A stretch of 64,000 nucleotides of DNA from Cupriavidus sp. MP-37 (GTDB lineage: Bacteria > Pseudomonadota > Gammaproteobacteria > Burkholderiales > Burkholderiaceae), in contig NZ_CP085345.1 of the NCBI RefSeq assembly GCF_020618415.1, positions 1,426,001 through 1,490,000 on the forward strand, in the 5' to 3' direction. Position 1 is the stretch's first letter. Every line of letters begins with the position of its first letter. The notes under the pieces are model-generated. The model saw only the letters and a program-made list of their open reading frames with translations, ran no database searches and was not told the origin of the DNA. The translations under genes and the position numbers were made by a program. Shown piece after piece: positions 27,119 through 45,466 of the stretch.

Positions 27119-28483
27119 TCAGACCGGCTCGGCCTCGCTGTCGGCGATCTGGTATTTGCGCATTTTTTCCCACAGCACCTTGCGGCTGATGCCCAGGCTG
27201 GCCGCCGTGTCCTGCCGCCGCCAGCCGTTGGCGTCGAGCGCGGCCAGGATGCGGCGGCGTTCTTCCATGTCGCCGCGCAGGTCGGCGCGCTCGCCGCCAT
27301 CGAACGCGCCCGGATGCAGCGCGCGGAACAGCGGCCGGATCCGCTCCTCGTCCCAATGCCCGGTCTGCTGCACGGTGATGCCGACGCGCTCGGCGAGGTT
27401 GCGCAGCTCGCGCACGTTGCCGGTGAAGTAGGCGGTGCCGACCGCGCCCTTGAGCCAGTCCGGCATCGGCGGCAACGCGTCATAACCGGACGCGCCCAAC
27501 ATATGGCGCAGGAACGACTGCAGCAGCGCCACCTTGTCGGCCGGACCACGCTCTTCCAGGCTGGGAATGCGCATCTCGATCACCGCCAGGCGGAAGAACA
27601 GGTCGGCGCGGAAGCGCCCCTGCCGCACCGCGTCGCGCAAGTCCTTGTTGGTCGCCGCGACCAGCCGGAAATCCAGCTTGACCGCCAGCGTCGAGCCCAG
27701 CCGGGTGATCACGTTCTCTTCCAGCACGCGCAGCAGCTTGACCTGCTGGAACAGCGGCAGGTCGCCGATTTCATCGAGAAACAGCGTGCCGCCGTTGGCC
27801 TGCTCGAAATACCCGCGATGCGCGAACGAAGCGCCCGTGAACGCGCCCTTGGCGTGGCCGAAGAACTGTGACTCGAACAGTCCGTCGGGAATCGCGCCGC
27901 AGTTGACCGCGACGAACGGGCCCTTGCCGTAGGTGCTGTTGCGCTCATGGAACAGGCGCGCGATGCGCTCCTTGCCGGCACCGGTTTCGCCGTACAGCAT
28001 CACGTTGCTGCCGAAGTCGGCAAAGGTTTCCACATGCTGCAGCAGCTGGCGCATCGCCGCGGAGCCAGCCACCAGGTCAGCCTCGCGCTCGCCTGGCGCG
28101 TCGGCCGCGAGCAGCTGCGGCAGCAGCTTGCCGATCTGGCTGCGCAGGTCGGCGCCGGTAAAGTCATCCGCCAGGATATGCGCGTACTCCGGCGGGAAGC
28201 GTCCGGGATCGGTCTCGCGCCCCGGTCCCGCCACCCAGATCACCGGCATGCCATGCGCGGCCTCCCAGTCCAGCGAAAAGCGCGCGGCGCCGATCACCGA
28301 CACGCTGATCACCGCGATGCACGGCTTCAGGCGCGGCTCGGCCGGCAAGGCCTCGAGCGCGCCGGCCCGAATCACGTCCACGCCCAGCGGCGCGAGGAAA
28401 CGCGTGACGCGGTCGGCAATCTCGTACTTGCCTTCCCACACGTACACTTCAAGGTTTTCGTAGGCCCAGCGGTCTGTCTTCAT
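27119..28483 (-). CDS. Sigma-54-dependent activator with degenerate receiver (VpsR-like), tad-linked
   Basis: A 454-residue enhancer-binding protein. Residues 1-130 look like a receiver fold, but the usual phospho-acceptor acidic pocket is not evident. The AAA+ domain has Walker A G165ETGAGKE172, the sigma-54 loop G213AFTGA218 and Walker [14 protein letters not shown]. The C-terminus is a Fis-type HTH ([17 protein letters not shown]). The intact GAFTGA predicts true sigma-54 activation. VpsR-type relatives respond to cyclic-di-GMP rather than phosphorylation; that this one does is inference. It is 38 bp after tadG and probably the last gene of the operon, so it may regulate it in feedback. 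Confidence 0.88.
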
Positions 28484-39061: not shown

Positions 39062-39535
39062 CTATCGGCCCGCAGCCATCCAGGCCAGCACGCCCACGGC
39101 CAGGTACGCCGCATACGGGATGCCGCGCGCCAGCGAAAACTGCGCCGTAGGAAGTGTTGGGTCCTGGGAATGCAAAGCGTGATCCGCGGCCGGCGTGCGG
39201 CGTGCCAGTGCCAGCGCCAGCAGCGCGTGCACCAGCCCGAGCAGGCTGCCGACGACCCATGCCACCACCAGCCCTTGCGGACCGGTGAACAACCCCGCCA
39301 CCGTCAGGAACTTGACGTCGCCCGCGGCCATGCGCCCGAGGGCGTAGACCGGCAAGGTGACGGCAAGACCCAGCCCCGCGCCGATCAGGCGCGCGGCCAG
39401 CGGCGGCTCCGCGGCCTGTCCGGCAACCAGCGCCAGCCCGAGGGCCAGCACGGCGATCGCCAGCAGGAGGTTCGGAACCCGCCGGTAAGCGAAGTCTGTG
39501 TAGAGGGTCGCCGCGCAGAGGAGCGCGGCAATCAC
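39062..39535 (-). CDS. tadV: Prepilin peptidase TadV/CpaA
   Basis: A 157-residue A24-family aspartic prepilin peptidase. The two catalytic Asp are D14 (LYTDFAYRRVPN) and D73 (RMAAGDVKF). About five hydrophobic segments are visible. It cleaves the Flp and TadE leader peptides in the inner membrane. The start is GTG at 39533-39535 because an in-frame TAG lies directly upstream. It follows flp after 30 bp. Confidence 0.87.
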   Translation of the reverse strand: MIAALLCAATLYTDFAYRRVPNLLLAIAVLALGLALVAGQAAEPPLAARLIGAGLGLAVTLPVYALGRMAAGDVKFLTVAGLFTGPQGLVVAWVVGSLLGLVHALLALALARRTPAADHALHSQDPTLPTAQFSLARGIPYAAYLAVGVLAWMAAGR

Positions 39536-39565
39536 ACTAGTCTCGTTGGAGAAGCCGGTTTCTCA

Positions 39566-39745
39566 TTATGTAGTGAACCAGCCCTTGACCTTGACGGAGA
39601 GCCGCTCAAAGCTCGCGTCGAGCTCAGTGCCAAGCTTTCCGGCGCCAACGGTAATAGCTAAAGCGACGAGCCCCACGATCAGCCCATATTCAATAGCCGT
39701 CGCCCCGCGCTCATCTTTGATAAAGCGTGCAATGAGTCGTTTCAT
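39566..39745 (-). CDS. flp: Flp-type major pilin
   Basis: A 59-residue Flp/Fap pilin. The leader MKRLIARFIKDERG ends at G14, and the mature protein begins ATAIEYGLIVGLVALAI, the Flp hallmark with Glu-Tyr at +5/+6. A GGGAG ribosome site lies 9 bp before ATG 39743-39745. The C-terminal WFTT is short. Codon choice is more AT-rich than in the following tad genes. It is the major subunit of the pilus; TadV cleaves it and TadA-driven assembly polymerises it. It is the first gene of the operon and heads a 372-bp leader. Confidence 0.95.
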   Translation of the reverse strand: MKRLIARFIKDERGATAIEYGLIVGLVALAITVGAGKLGTELDASFERLSVKVKGWFTT

Positions 39746-39864
39746 GATTTGACACTCCCAAGGTGATCTGATGCCGCGATCACGCTTTCCCCCGTTCGAT
39801 TATCACGGTGCTCTGACGGCCCGCTCTTTTATCGACTTTTCACGCTTGCTGCGCTTTTTTTATA

Positions 39865-39889
39865 AGACATGGTATGTCTCAACCATACC
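39865..39889 (-). promoter_or_regulatory. Nested inverted repeats upstream of flp
   Basis: AGACAT-GGT-ATGTCT (39865-39879) overlaps GGTATG (39871-39876) paired with CATACC (39884-39889). On the minus strand a TATAAA-like AT run follows immediately. The arrangement suggests an operator at a promoter, or a hairpin in the flp leader, about 120 bp before the flp ATG. Confidence 0.4.
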
Positions 39890-39967
39890 CCTCCCTCGGG
39901 TGATAGTAATGACCCGAAGGGGTTAATGCACCCGTTTGAAACGACCGGCACGCGCCGGCTCATAGCT

Positions 39968-39979
39968 TGTTAAAGAGCA
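39968..39979 (-). promoter_or_regulatory. rRNA-type boxA antitermination sequence
   Basis: The minus strand reads TGCTCTTTAACA, and with flanks CTGCTCTTTAACAAGC, which matches the boxA of Escherichia coli rRNA leaders. BoxA RNA is bound by NusB-S10 to build a transcript-antitermination complex. It lies between a GC hairpin and flp in the order hairpin-boxA, as in rRNA leaders (boxB-boxA). No rRNA gene is near. Function here is inferred. Confidence 0.6.
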
Positions 39980-39980
39980 G

Positions 39981-40004
39981 GCGGGCCGGCGCAAGCCGGC
40001 CCGC
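39981..40004 (-). promoter_or_regulatory. GC hairpin (boxB-like) preceding boxA in flp leader
   Basis: GCGGGCCGGC (39981-39990) and GCCGGCCCGC (39995-40004) form a perfect 10-bp stem with a four-base loop (TTGC on the minus strand). There is no T-run after it, so it is not a normal terminator. It lies directly before the boxA-like site, the position of boxB in rRNA leaders. It could equally end the upstream lipoprotein transcript with Rho. Confidence 0.5.
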
Positions 40005-40117
40005 AGCCTGGCCATGCAGGCTTTTCAGCCGCGCGGCCAGGTGGAATAAAAAGATGCGCTGCGACGGGGTGATGAGCGACAGCGCACCGTGAAAACACCT
40101 ATGCGGGTTGAGACATT

Positions 40118-41317
40118 TCAGTGGTGAAGCAGTCCGCCCAGGATCGGCAGTTGCGGCTTGCTGTCGCCGCCGCCCGAGCCGCCCCCGGCGCTGCCGCCGA
40201 CGCCGCTCTTGATGCCGCCGACCAGGCCGGTGACCGGTGCCAGCAGCGCGCCGACCGGACCCAGTGCACCGCCGCCGCTGGCACCGCCGTCGCCGCTGCC
40301 CGGCTTGACCAGCGGCAGGTTGCCGAGCAGCCCGCCGAGCGCATTGCCGCCGTGGCCGCCATCGCCGCCGTGGCCGTTGCCGGCACCGGCCAGCGGCAGG
40401 TTGTTCAACAGGCCGCCCAGCGGGTTGCCGCCGGTCTGGCCGTTGCCGTTGACCAGCACGCCGACCGCGGCAACGGTCTTGCCGGCCTCGGTCACCACGC
40501 CGCCGAGCGGCGCGACCACCGGTGCCTGCGTGTGGCTGAGCATGCTGCCGCCGGTGGCCACCGTATTGCCCACCTTGTAGAGCAGGCCGTCGACCGGTCC
40601 GCCCAGGCGCGTGGCCGCGCCCAGCGTCTGCGTGCCGTCGGTGACCTTGCTGGTCAGCGGCACGATGACCTTGCTGAGCGAGTTGGTGACCTGCGCGACG
40701 GCGCCATCGGACAGCACCGTCTGCAGCTTGTCGCCGCCGCCTTGCACCACCGTGCCGACCTTTGTGACCAGGCCGCCCACCGGCGTGGTCAGCGGTGCCA
40801 GCGGCGCCAGCTTCTCGGTGCCCAGGCCCTTCACCAGCGCACCGCCGCTGACCACGGCATCGCCCACTTCGCGCACGACGTTGCCGGTGCTGGACACGGT
40901 CACGCCGAGCGGGTTATCGACCGAGCCCATCTGCCCGAGCCCGTCGCGCACGCCGGCGCCGAGCGCGCCGACCGCTTCGCCCGCATTGACCACCACCCCG
41001 CCCGCGCCCTTGCGCGCGTCGGTGGGCAGCAGCGGCAGCGGCGCGTCCTGGATCGACTTGCCGATCTCGCTGACGGCATTGCCCGCTGCCACCACGGTAT
41101 TGCCGGCGCCTTCGGCGACCTTGGCGGTCGGCGTGGTTTGCGCGGCGGCCGGCGGCGGCGGCGTGACCGGCGTGTCGGAGCCGCCGCCGCTGGGCTGCGG
41201 ATTGGCGCCGCTGCCGCCGCCGCTCGACGAGCAGCCCGACATCAGCAAGGCAAGGGCGGCCATGCCGGCCGCGGCCAGCGAGGTCATGGAAAGCGGTGCG
41301 GGATGCTTGGTCTTCAT
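40118..41317 (-). CDS. Glycine-rich collagen-like-repeat lipoprotein A
   Basis: A 399-residue secreted lipoprotein; the lipobox LLMSGC is followed by SSSGGGSGANPQPSGGG. Residues about 65-290 consist of repeating hydrophobic/Gly/Val units such as GNTVVAAGNAVSEIG, GGVVVNAGEAVGALG, and LAPLAPLTTPVGGLVTKVG. The C-terminus has NPLGGLLNNLPLAG and NALGGLLGNLPLV repeats and ends KPQLPILGGLLHH. It aligns over about 230 residues with the protein of 42007-43617, so they are paralogs. A GGAGAAGGA ribosome site precedes the ATG. Function is unknown; a surface or matrix role is inferred from repeats and neighbours. Confidence 0.82.
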   Translation of the reverse strand: MKTKHPAPLSMTSLAAAGMAALALLMSGCSSSGGGSGANPQPSGGGSDTPVTPPPPAAAQTTPTAKVAEGAGNTVVAAGNAVSEIGKSIQDAPLPLLPTDARKGAGGVVVNAGEAVGALGAGVRDGLGQMGSVDNPLGVTVSSTGNVVREVGDAVVSGGALVKGLGTEKLAPLAPLTTPVGGLVTKVGTVVQGGGDKLQTVLSDGAVAQVTNSLSKVIVPLTSKVTDGTQTLGAATRLGGPVDGLLYKVGNTVATGGSMLSHTQAPVVAPLGGVVTEAGKTVAAVGVLVNGNGQTGGNPLGGLLNNLPLAGAGNGHGGDGGHGGNALGGLLGNLPLVKPGSGDGGASGGGALGPVGALLAPVTGLVGGIKSGVGGSAGGGSGGGDSKPQLPILGGLLHH

Positions 41318-41633
41318 TGTCCTTCTCCTGTCTGGTTGGCCACGGCGCTGCCGGGCCGTCTTTTCTTGTGAACCGCATGGAATGCCGACGAGCCCCCCCG
41401 GTTGTCCCGCTTTGTTCCACCTGCCTGCCATCCCCATCAGTCATGGCAACACGGTGGAACGCGAAATCGTCGGCGCGTCGGGATAGCAAATGGCAAGGCG
41501 CGTGCCAGCGCTGCAAGGTGCGCTGGCGCGCAGACCGGGCGGGCGGTTGCATGCCTTGCGCGGCGCGGGTTGCAAGGCGAATCGGGGTAGCGGCGCCACC
41601 CACGCTGGCGGCGCCGCGGCCGGGTCAGAACGT

Positions 41634-41650
41634 GTTACGTGCTACGTAAC
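41634..41650. promoter_or_regulatory. Operator-like inverted repeat GTTACGT-GCT-ACGTAAC
   Basis: Perfect 7-bp arms with a 3-bp spacer lie 317 bp before the lipoprotein A start and 357 bp before the lipoprotein B start. The same GTTACGTAAC core recurs 118 bp away. This fits a dimeric repressor or activator site; the protein is unknown. Confidence 0.55.
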
Positions 41651-41753
41651 GTGTTCCGCGCAGGCGGGAACACGCAGTGGCGGCGCGGGCAGCGCGCGCC
41701 GGCCGCCGACGCACCCCATCGCCCACGCTGTTTTGTTCCCCGCCCACGACACA

Positions 41754-41765
41754 CGTTACGTAACG
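41754..41765. promoter_or_regulatory. Operator-like palindrome CGTTACGTAACG with extra half-site
   Basis: A 12-bp perfect palindrome followed directly by CGTAACGCG, which gives an additional GTAACG half-site. Its centre is about 118 bp (some 11 helical turns) from the sister site at 41634-41650, a spacing compatible with looping or cooperative binding. Confidence 0.55.
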
Positions 41766-42006
41766 CGTAACGCGCCAACCCCTTTACGCAAACGCTCGCG
41801 CAACGCTCGCGGCGTTTTCCCCGACCGGCGTGCAGGCCGCATGCCGCAAGGCTTTGCGGGGGCCATACCCGACTTCGGCGGGGTCTGTGCGGTAGCGCGC
41901 TGAAACGCTGGCATACCGATTGCGCCATCACCGTCACCGCAGCACGCAGAAGACGAACGCGTTGCGCGGCCGAGCGATTGAAACGACGGGAATGAAGGAA
42001 CAGATC

Positions 42007-43617
42007 ATGCGCAAACAACAACTCGCCATCACGGCACTCCTCGCAACCCTGCTGGCCCTGGGTGGCTGCGCCAGCGGCAGCGGTTCGACGTCGATGGGCA
42101 CCAGCGATACCGCGGGGACCAATGGCGGCACCAACGGCGGCACCAACGGCGGTACGAGCGGCGGTACCAATGGCGACACCAACGGGGGCACCGGCAGCAC
42201 CGGTGGGACGGGTGGCACTGACGTGGCCGGTGGCGGTACCGGGGGCACGGGTGGTGGGACCGGTGGCGGCAGCGGCGGCACGGGCGGTGGCAATGGAGGC
42301 AATACCGGCGGTGGCGAGACGCCCGCCGCAAAGACCCCGACCGCCACGGTGATCAACAACGCCGGCACGGTGCTGGGCAATACGGGCAGCACCGTCAGCG
42401 ATCTCGGCAACCAGCTTGGCAACGCCAACCTGCCGCTGCTGCCGGGCCAGACCCAGAGCGGGCTGGGCGGCGTGGTGGCGTCGACCGGCGATGCCGTCGG
42501 CGCGCTGGCCACGGGTCTGCAATCGGGCCTGGGCAGCATGCCCAATTCGACTAACCCGGTCGGCACCACCGTCGCCAGCACCGGCAACGTGGTGACCGAA
42601 CTGGGCAAGGCGGTGTCGAGCGCCGGCACGGCCGTGAGCGGCCTGGGCACCGGCCAGCTGGCACCGCTGGCGCCGCTGACTTCGCCGCTGGGCACGGTGG
42701 TCGGCACGCTGGGCAATACCGTGAGCAACACCGGCGGGACGCTGACCTCGGTGCTGTCGAGCGGTGCGGTCGAGCAGGTCACCATCACCACCAGCAAGCT
42801 GATCGTGCCGATCACCTCGCAGCTGACCAGCACCACGCAATCGCTGGGCGCCGCGACCGGGCTGGGCACCCCGACCGCCGGCCTGCTGGCGACGGTGGGC
42901 GGCGCGCTGGCCACCGCGGGCAGCAAGCTGCAGCAGACCAACACGCCGGTGGTTTCAGGCGTCGGCGGCGTGGTGAATGCCACCGGCACCACCGTGGCCG
43001 CGCTCGGCGGCGCGGTGAACGGCCCGGCCGGCGGCGGCGGGCTGGGCGCGCTGAGCCCGGTCCTGGCACCGGTAACTTCGCTGGCCGGGGGGCTGACGGG
43101 GGGTGGGGGCGCTGGCGGCACCGGTTCGCCGCTGGCGCCTGTCACCGGCCTGGTCGGCAGCGTCACCGGCGGCCTGACTGCCGCCACCGCCAACACGCCG
43201 CTGGCACCGGTCACGACGCTGGTCAGCGGCGCGGTGGGCGGCCTCGGCAGCACCACCGGCGGCAGCAGCGCTTCGCCGCTGGCGCCGGTCACCGGCCTGG
43301 TCGGCGCCGTCACCGGCGGCCTGACCTCCGCCACGGCCAGCACACCGCTGGCACCGGTCACCGGCGCGGTGAGCGGCGTGGTGAATGGCGTCGTCGGTGG
43401 CGTCGTCGGTGGCGTGGTCGGCAGCGTTGGCGGCGCAACCGCCGGCACCGGCACCACCAGCCCGCTGGCTCCGGTCACCAATGTCGTCTCCGCCGTGACC
43501 GGCGGCGCCACCACCACCGCGGGCAGCACCACCACCAAGGGTTCGGTCACCGGCCCCGTCGGTGGCCTGGTCGGCGGCTTGCTCGGCGGCCTGAGCGGCG
43601 CGCTCGGCCAGAAGTAA
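42007..43617 (+). CDS. Glycine-rich collagen-like-repeat lipoprotein B
   Basis: A 536-residue lipoprotein. Lipobox LLALGGC ends the signal, then residues 22-105 are a Gly/Thr repeat tract built on NGGT and GGTGG units. The middle repeats the pattern seen in lipoprotein A (GGVVASTGDAVGALATG, TVASTGNVVTELGKAVSSAG). The C-terminal third repeats SPLAPVTGLVG-VTGGLT-TPLAPVT units. ATG 42007 has AAGGAAC upstream; ATG 41992 is an alternative. It reads toward the FhaC-type transporter gene 181 bp downstream. Codon content is extreme GC. It is a probable surface/matrix protein of unknown function. Confidence 0.8.
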   Translation: MRKQQLAITALLATLLALGGCASGSGSTSMGTSDTAGTNGGTNGGTNGGTSGGTNGDTNGGTGSTGGTGGTDVAGGGTGGTGGGTGGGSGGTGGGNGGNTGGGETPAAKTPTATVINNAGTVLGNTGSTVSDLGNQLGNANLPLLPGQTQSGLGGVVASTGDAVGALATGLQSGLGSMPNSTNPVGTTVASTGNVVTELGKAVSSAGTAVSGLGTGQLAPLAPLTSPLGTVVGTLGNTVSNTGGTLTSVLSSGAVEQVTITTSKLIVPITSQLTSTTQSLGAATGLGTPTAGLLATVGGALATAGSKLQQTNTPVVSGVGGVVNATGTTVAALGGAVNGPAGGGGLGALSPVLAPVTSLAGGLTGGGGAGGTGSPLAPVTGLVGSVTGGLTAATANTPLAPVTTLVSGAVGGLGSTTGGSSASPLAPVTGLVGAVTGGLTSATASTPLAPVTGAVSGVVNGVVGGVVGGVVGSVGGATAGTGTTSPLAPVTNVVSAVTGGATTTAGSTTTKGSVTGPVGGLVGGLLGGLSGALGQK

Positions 43618-43663: not shown

Positions 43664-43798
43664 TGCTCACCTGATTCAACGTAGCGGCCACGCGCTGGAC
43701 CGGCAGCATCGGACAGCAGGCGCCAGGGGGTAGCGGCAATCCCCACGCCGGTGGCACGCGACGTCAATAGCCGCAGTGTTTCTTACAGGGGTTTTGCC

Positions 43799-45466
43799 AT
43801 GCGTGCACGTCATCGCGTTGCCGCGCTGCTGGTCGGCGTCGGCGCGTTCCATCACGGCCTGGTCCAGGCCGATCCGCGCAGCCCGGTCCAGGGCGATCCG
43901 ACCCAGACGCTTCCCAAGATTGCACCGGCCCGGCCCGACAGCCGCGTGACCGTGCAGGTCGAGCGGCCGCAGCCCGCGATGCAGGACCTGCTCAACGCGC
44001 GCCTGACGCCGCGGCGCTTTCGCATCGAGGGCGCCAAGACGCTGCCGTTCGACGAAGTGGCCGCGCAGTTCAAGCCGCTGGCCAACCGCGAGATCACGGT
44101 GGCGCAGCTGCTGGAAGCCGCCAATGCGGTGACGCAGATGTACAAGGAGCGCGGCTACCCGCTGTCGTTCGCCTTCGTGCCGGCGCAGGACTTCGCCAAC
44201 GGCGATGTGCTGGTGACGGTGGTCGAAGGTTACGTGGCCAAGGTGACCGTGACCGGCAAGGCGGGCCCGGCCGAGCGCCGCCTGCGCGCCATCGCCGAGA
44301 AACTGCAGCAGGACCGCCCCCTGCGCCAGGACCGCTTCGAGCACTACGTCAACGCGCTGGCGCTGCAGCCGGGCCTGCAGGTGGCGGCCACGGTGCAGCC
44401 GCCGACCACCACCGACGGCGCCTGCGAGATGGTGCTCGAGGTCAAGCGCAAGCCCTTCACCTTCGGCACCGGCATCGAATACATGTCGCCGGGCCTGCGC
44501 GCCATCGCCACGGCGACCACCAACAGCCTGACCCCGCTGGGCGAGCAGATCTCGGTGTCGGCGCTGTTTCCGAAGGGCCGCGACAGCGAGGAGTACTACG
44601 CCGCCAGCTATGCGCAGCCGATCGGCACCGAAGGCATGGTGGCGCGGCTCAATGCCTCGCACTACCGCGGCGTGCCGCAGAACGCGACGCTGCCGCCGAT
44701 CGGCTTCAACCCCCGCTATGTCAACGACACCAAGCGCATCGGCGGCACCCTGAGCTATCCGCTGCTGCTGTCCAACGCGCATACGCTCACGCTGACCGGC
44801 GGCGTCTACGGTGCCGACCAGTTCGAGCGCTATACCCATGCCGCGACCGGCACGCGCGTCACGCTCGGCACCAATGTGCGCGTGGCCACCGCCGAGCTGA
44901 CCTACGTGCAACGCGGCGAAGGCGTCAGCCGCAATGCCACGCTGGGCCTGTACAAGGGTTTCGATGCGATGGGCGCGAGCCGCCAGAACAACAGCAACGA
45001 CCTGAGCTTCTTCCGCACGCGGCTGCTGCTGTCGCAATCGAAAGACCTGCCCGCGGGCTTTGGCCTGACCGTGGCCGCGGCCGGCCAGTACAGCGGCGAC
45101 CGGCTGGCATCCGGCGAGCAGATCAGCTTTGGCGGACGCTTCTTCGGCCTGGGCTATCCCGCCGGGGAAGTTGCCGGCGACAAGGGCTGGGGCGCGTCGG
45201 CGGAAATCAGCCGGCTGTTCCTGCCGGACCTTACCTACCTGCGCACGATCCAGCCTTATGTCTCCGCCGACGTGGCGCGCGTGTATTCCAACAGCGTGTC
45301 GCTGTCGCACCGCAGCCTGTCGTCGGTGGCCCTCGGCGCGCGCTTCTCGGACCGGCGCTACTACACGCTGGACCTGTCGCTGGCGCAGCCGGTCGGCGAC
45401 AAGCCGACCAATGCCAGCCGCCGCTCGCCGCGCATCAACATGATTTATTCCTACCAGTTCGACTGA
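43799..45466 (+). CDS. ShlB/FhaC/HecB-family two-partner secretion transporter (TpsB)
   Basis: A 555-residue outer-membrane protein with a signal peptide (about 1-24) and an N-terminal plug/linker. The POTRA_2 domain is at about 80-160 (RRFRIEGAKTLPFDEVAAQF, YKERGYPLSFAFVPAQDFANGDVLVTVVEGYVAKV). The FhaC-type 16-strand barrel ends in IYSYQFD with a C-terminal aromatic. Normally TpsB exports a large TpsA exoprotein, but no TpsA gene is adjacent; the neighbour is the glycine-rich lipoprotein B. It may export that protein, a distant substrate, or act in another way. It ends at a strong terminator. Confidence 0.9.
   Translation: MRARHRVAALLVGVGAFHHGLVQADPRSPVQGDPTQTLPKIAPARPDSRVTVQVERPQPAMQDLLNARLTPRRFRIEGAKTLPFDEVAAQFKPLANREITVAQLLEAANAVTQMYKERGYPLSFAFVPAQDFANGDVLVTVVEGYVAKVTVTGKAGPAERRLRAIAEKLQQDRPLRQDRFEHYVNALALQPGLQVAATVQPPTTTDGACEMVLEVKRKPFTFGTGIEYMSPGLRAIATATTNSLTPLGEQISVSALFPKGRDSEEYYAASYAQPIGTEGMVARLNASHYRGVPQNATLPPIGFNPRYVNDTKRIGGTLSYPLLLSNAHTLTLTGGVYGADQFERYTHAATGTRVTLGTNVRVATAELTYVQRGEGVSRNATLGLYKGFDAMGASRQNNSNDLSFFRTRLLLSQSKDLPAGFGLTVAAAGQYSGDRLASGEQISFGGRFFGLGYPAGEVAGDKGWGASAEISRLFLPDLTYLRTIQPYVSADVARVYSNSVSLSHRSLSSVALGARFSDRRYYTLDLSLAQPVGDKPTNASRRSPRINMIYSYQFD

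Follow-up and report, generated by a model that had tools for sequence, protein, structure and literature searches.

Sequence comparison indicates that the boxA upstream of the flp pilin gene in Cupriavidus sp. MP-37 is a real, genus-level, non-rRNA site. The reading that we favor, to which we assign a probability of roughly 45%, is that this boxA is genuine, would be carried on RNA that reads through from a collagen-like gene past the weak terminator T1, and would antiterminate the tad operon. The stretch of DNA that was analyzed (the window; 64,000 nucleotides) is on the smaller replicon (2.5 Mb) of a two-replicon genome of 6.1 Mb and contains the following features.

40118..41317, minus strand: collagen-like gene (PF15984), upstream of flp and in the same direction; ORF list and Pfam
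40045..40088, minus strand: T1, a terminator-like hairpin with a 9-bp stem, a long loop and the short T-run TTTTTATT; sequence and covariation
40007..40041, minus strand: T2, a hairpin lying after T1 and before boxA; maintained by compensatory changes in both clade 1 and clade 2
39981..40004, minus strand: T3, the GC hairpin GCGGGCCGGCTTGCGCCGGCCCGC, called boxB in an earlier note on this DNA; 10-bp stem, poorly conserved
39967..39979, minus strand: boxA, TGCTCTTTAACAA; motif scan and genus comparison
39933..39943, minus strand: palindrome CGTTTCAAACG, 76-78 bp before TATAAA
39859..39891, minus strand: probable flp promoter GGGGTATGGTTGAGACATACCATGTCTTATAAA with TATAAA as -10, suggested by a conserved pattern
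39566..39745, minus strand: flp pilin gene; ORF list and Pfam PF04964
28522..39535, minus strand: tad genes; ORF list and Pfam
27119..28483, minus strand: sigma-54-type activator at the end of the tad cluster; Pfam PF00158 and PF02954

Along the direction of transcription, the order is collagen-like gene, T1, T2, boxA, CGTTTCAAACG, GGGGTATG...TATAAA and flp. The start of the collagen-like gene (41317) was picked by its ribosome-binding site, and the relatives examined carry a gene of the same kind upstream of flp. A second collagen-like gene (PF15984; 41920-43617, plus strand) is divergent from the first and is followed by a ShlB/FhaC-type transporter gene (43751-45466, plus strand). The tad genes encode an A24 peptidase, TadE-like, RcpC/CpaB, secretin and TadZ-like proteins, a T2SSE ATPase, two T2SSF proteins, a TPR protein and a Tad_C protein; the Flp pilin, prepilin peptidase, RcpC, secretin, TadZ, ATPase, two T2SSF and TadE/G-like components by which a Tad/Flp pilus cluster is recognized are all present.

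The boxA motif and its occurrence in the genome

On the minus strand, a GC hairpin (40004-39981) is followed by a single C (39980) and then by TGCTCTTTAACA at 39979-39968. This bears out the earlier description of a GC hairpin, 1 bp and an rRNA-type boxA at 40004-39968, and the long operon of about 11 kb said to lie behind it was found as flp plus an 11.2-kb tad cluster on the same strand. Even when two mismatches were tolerated, TGCTCTTTAACA had no other match in the window; since chance would yield 0.84 matches at that stringency, the window by itself is little proof of boxA.

The motif was scored by the published boxA consensus GYTCTTTAANA, which is gamma-proteobacterial (excerpts of PMC5725501), the host being a beta-proteobacterium. 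The flp-upstream site matches this consensus, for which the whole genome contained 10 matches, compared with 5 for the reversed pattern. Nine of the 10 are at rRNA operons and the other is the site upstream of flp, which reads GCTCTTTAACA, the genome's own rRNA boxA sites being GTTCTTTAACA. Using Rfam, four of the nine rRNA-linked sites were placed between 16S and 23S matches, and four others are 1.85-2.05 kb upstream of a spacer site and thus, by position, in 16S leaders. The remaining site lies before a 23S match with two tRNAs (L004, one of five spacers), with no 16S match listed in the 1.5 kb upstream and no leader boxA found; the 16S gene at this locus may be broken, missing or masked. 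Permitting G at the ninth base added one genome site, C1:1122385, which was rejected as an extra boxA as it is antisense within a coding frame that we take to be hemC (recognized by eye). The plasmid collection searched gave no match, and Rfam returned three matches, with E values up to 5, all below gathering scores. A NusB gene is present in the genome.

Conservation of boxA within and outside Cupriavidus

The T1 hairpin pattern was found once each in 40 of 60 Cupriavidus genomes (reversed pattern, 0), and 39 of the 40 (all but G051) were read for boxA. Of the 39, 28 had a boxA differing from YGYTCTTTRACAA at no more than one position, and in 21 it was exact; GYTCTTTAANA was matched exactly in 20 of 39, rising to 26 of 39 when position 9 of the 13-mer could be A or G. 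Thirty-six of the 39 genomes carry a T1 with an ACCCCG loop, and boxA accompanied it in 28 of these and was absent from eight (G008, G010, G016, G017, G023, G025, G031, and G042). As boxA is missing from 8 of 36 leaders of its type, it is dispensable. A second type of T1 was found in 3 of the 39 genomes (G009, G011, and G012), none of which has boxA. In the 30 leaders found by the promoter-module pattern among the 60 genomes, boxA was exact in 21 and within one mismatch in 24, with 0 antisense copies, 0 reversed copies and 0.05 expected from dinucleotide shuffles. Named loci of the genus numbered 23 (the 22 top secretin loci plus L231, overlapping with the other genus genomes), and 19 of them had boxA within one mismatch. 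These are all Cupriavidus records except one titled Ralstonia sp., which was placed among Cupriavidus in the tree. The version in C. basilensis is TGCTCTTTAAAAA.

On a CpaC tree (root arbitrary, L217 left out, frame of L221 bad, and L231 a fragment), boxA occurred throughout the genus, with four isolated tips lacking it, and its labels showed no more clustering than many shuffles did (73 of 500 scored as low). Across 24 leaders with boxA, a choice that favors boxA somewhat, identity between clades 1 and 2 was 86% in boxA and 81% in T1 and the palindrome, compared with 48% in the T1-boxA stretch (shuffled, 46%) and 33% in the linker after boxA; boxA is in sense orientation and is conserved beyond the neighboring sequence. 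Genus-wide, YGCTCTTTRACAA was no commoner than its reverse (30 matches each), with 12 of its 30 matches in Flp leaders. Two of the 18 non-Flp matches resemble rRNA spacers, and most of the other 16 are in or opposite long open frames, an assignment of context that leaves out L160, L162, and L163. Under the favored reading, boxA is old within the Cupriavidus tad locus.

Outside the genus, no boxA within two mismatches was identified in 600 bp of any of 59 Flp leaders from other genera of the family; these leaders came from 64 loci, five of them without a flp start, the 64 being part of the places listed. At two mismatches, the controls in the same leaders gave antisense matches in L072, L078, L083, and L131 and reversed matches in L088, L093, and L114. 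Similarly, boxA was found in none of 54 tad loci of other genera, mostly from other families (L225, L239, and L245, where 800 bases were covered, are not among the 54). As far as sampled, the element is confined to the genus. The rRNA-type boxA of the earlier note is thus genuine-looking and in sense, and most genus genomes sharing the region keep it upstream of flp; its expected presence there in relatives held for 28 of 39 Cupriavidus genomes with T1 but not for other genera.

In the nearest other genus (L061, L062, L069, L094, and L097), a T1 that looks homologous is followed by a T-run of 7-8, with no boxA, and these Flp leaders share further blocks, such as GCCTATAAA and GTTACGTGACAT. One locus, L242, is titled Bacillus subtilis SK7B5 and has a secretin gene resembling those of Stenotrophomonas; this assembly is probably contaminated or mislabelled.

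Hairpins and the promoter-like module around boxA

T1, the terminator of the collagen-like gene, was missed by a simple terminator scan limited to loops of 3-8. In clade 1, pairing was kept in 100% of cells for T1, 97.5% for T2 and 81% for T3, the weakest helix there, with a two-sided change in one of nine T3 pairs. The covariation score was 0.194 in clade 1 with T3 included (shuffled, 0.098) and 0.232 in clade 2 (shuffled, 0.118), in each case reached by 0 of 500 shuffles, though such covariation is strand-blind by itself and can be inflated by the relatedness of the sequences. T1 and T2 behave as RNA hairpins, and since both covary, RNA beyond T1 is likely.

T3 occurs as a perfect 9-bp stem once in the genome and was terminator-like in the terminator scan. 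In rRNA leaders boxB precedes boxA, and the earlier note, which had compared the motif with the E. coli rRNA boxA, took the adjacent T3 for boxB on this basis. That assignment had to be abandoned: T3 is poorly conserved relative to T1 and T2, no conserved hairpin lies directly before boxA, and in clade 2 the hairpin before boxA is T2, farther upstream. The elements boxB, boxA and boxC are named together in excerpts of PMC10250234.

Of the 36 ACCCCG-type leaders, 35 have a T-run of 4-5 after T1 (the exception, G040, has 7 and carries boxA), and the run is still short where boxA is missing. It is 6-7 in all three second-type leaders, which have no boxA, and 8 in G013; 12 leaders from the nearest other genus have 7-8, in a survey that gave no value for L191. 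A weak terminator followed by boxA suggests that read-through would be made processive. The T1 loop motif ACCCCG (40088-40053, minus strand) is kept in 36 of 39 genomes, and, speculatively, a small RNA made from the 3' end of the collagen-like gene could finish at T1.

A promoter-like pattern was found once each in 30 of the 60 genus genomes (reversed control, 0), and in all 30 leaders the module sits between boxA and flp. In all 30 leaders, TTTCAAACG, or a variant of it, stands 76-78 bp before TATAAA, and in three C. basilensis loci this spacing is 77. In the 28 genomes that have boxA, it follows the first G of T1 at a near-constant 100-111 nt. The spacing between boxA and the palindrome ranges from 21 to 64. 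From these three spacings, boxA would be tied to T1 and not to the promoter module, and the leader looks like two rigid modules joined by a flexible linker. Palindrome CGTTTCAAACG is a probable upstream activator site.

The -35 region of the promoter-like module showed no fit by eye, and a consensus sigma-70 scan of 39500-41500 and 41250-42100 gave no promoter match; an activator or another sigma factor is therefore likely, and neither a local nor an upstream start is certain. Two other candidates were rejected by eye: TTTRACA as -35, which has no -10 at a fixed distance, and a sigma-54 promoter before flp, prompted by the activator at the cluster end, for which there is no conserved GG-N10-GC (-24/-12). 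GGTATG-N7-CATACC, taken from the terminator scan as a possible RNA hairpin, was not kept in relatives.

An 11-bp inverted repeat has one half, ATGTCTCAACC, just after the stop of the collagen-like gene (40116-40106) and the other, GGTTGAGACAT, in the promoter-like module (39884-39874). It is nearly invariant in clade 1, and a single regulator may bind both halves. RNAalifold proposed a long-range helix of 9 pairs joining about 40116-40106 to 39884-39874; this was discarded, being almost invariant and hence without covariation, and it was missing from clade 2 on inspection by eye.

The position of these elements bears on which RNA would contain boxA. Covarying T1 and T2 are upstream of it, and the sole promoter-like module found is downstream, so RNA started at that module would be without boxA. 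The placement of boxA in the tad leader by the earlier note was consequently only partly upheld, since the motif is in sense before the long tad cluster but the module follows it in 30 of 30 leaders. A start for flp downstream of 39968, which the same note had weighed against its claim, is expected from position near 39851, although no sigma-70 consensus match was found there.

Proposed read-through antitermination and its alternatives

Under the favored reading, boxA at 39967-39979 would be where NusB-S10 (NusE), part of the rRNA antitermination complex, binds the RNA, and would be carried by RNA entering from the collagen-like gene past a weakened T1, not by RNA from the flp promoter. After T2, boxA would load the Nus complex onto that read-through polymerase, which would become less prone to Rho-dependent termination on its way through the untranslated gap and the 11-kb tad cluster. 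The tad genes would thereby be transcribed processively from read-through as well as from the local promoter. These steps, from promoter position through read-through and Nus binding to the effect on tad, are predicted from sequence. That a terminator-gated boxA converts read-through of the collagen-like gene into Rho-resistant, processive transcription of the Tad pilus operon is a tentative and rather unlikely extension. If true, two surface structures would be coupled and pilus expression tied to the Nus pool of ribosome synthesis, linking surface-attachment genes to the ribosome-production machinery. A single genus-level non-rRNA site before a pilus operon would offer a clean test of an rRNA-type boxA at an mRNA operon and of why boxA would sit between a terminator and a promoter.

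Alternatively, the main tad transcript may start upstream of boxA, which would then be part of a long leader, the TATAAA module not being the main promoter. The sense orientation and conservation of boxA before a long operon, the covariation of T2 between T1 and boxA, which implies that some RNA covers it, and the lack of a consensus sigma-70 match at the TATAAA module are all consistent with this. We consider it unlikely, however, as the fixed-spacing module lies downstream of boxA in 30 of 30 leaders, no promoter match was found between the collagen-like gene and boxA, and the spacing of boxA is fixed to T1 rather than to flp. Less probable still is that Nus-bound boxA helps Rho to stop read-through and so insulates the tad promoter from the collagen-like gene. 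Its placement between a weak terminator and a promoter would suit such a role, and the Nus complex promotes Rho-dependent termination at suhB, but the effect there is mainly via blocked translation (excerpts of PMC5725501), and no gene start is near boxA here.

It is also improbable that the motif is a look-alike, such as a DNA or other RNA element bound by a protein working with the nearby palindrome. Several decayed copies (G010, G017, G025, and G042) do keep the 3' part, (R)ACAA. Against this, the varying positions 1, 3, and 10 are those free in the published consensus, position 9 (A/G) being the only addition, the distance to the palindrome is variable, and antisense copies are missing from all 30 leaders. 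A chance match is hardly credible despite the 0.84 two-mismatch matches expected in the window and the equal genus-wide frequency of YGCTCTTTRACAA and its reverse, as 12 of the 30 YGCTCTTTRACAA matches fall in Flp leaders and boxA is conserved amid scrambled flanks.

Returning to read-through antitermination, Stringer and colleagues reportedly found in 2020 that boxA in the leaders of CRISPR arrays protects a long non-rRNA transcript from Rho; here the operon encodes a pilus, and boxA is upstream of a promoter. The boxA of rRNA operons, in the 16S leader and 16S-23S spacer, has the same sequence as the flp-upstream site, whereas the latter precedes a protein-coding cluster, between a terminator and a promoter-like module, and has no conserved boxB. 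Few non-rRNA targets of the rRNA antitermination complex have been described, and those known here are gamma-proteobacterial: excerpts of PMC5725501 report suhB and a ParE-type toxin gene as targets of the Nus complex, with boxA-like sites also preceding other genes, in a search that kept sites within 50 bp of gene starts. Those at suhB and the ParE-type gene are likewise non-rRNA and near mRNA genes, but the site described here precedes flp by about 220 bp, belongs to a beta-proteobacterium and is expected to act by antitermination. Among the matches listed from the open-access literature (titles and abstract starts), no report of boxA before pilus genes was found, and the consulted part of the main text of a C. 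metallidurans start-site paper (PMC7563307) had no mention of flp, tad or pilus. RfaH and LoaP similarly help RNA polymerase through long operons but, unlike the boxA route, need a specialized NusG-like protein.
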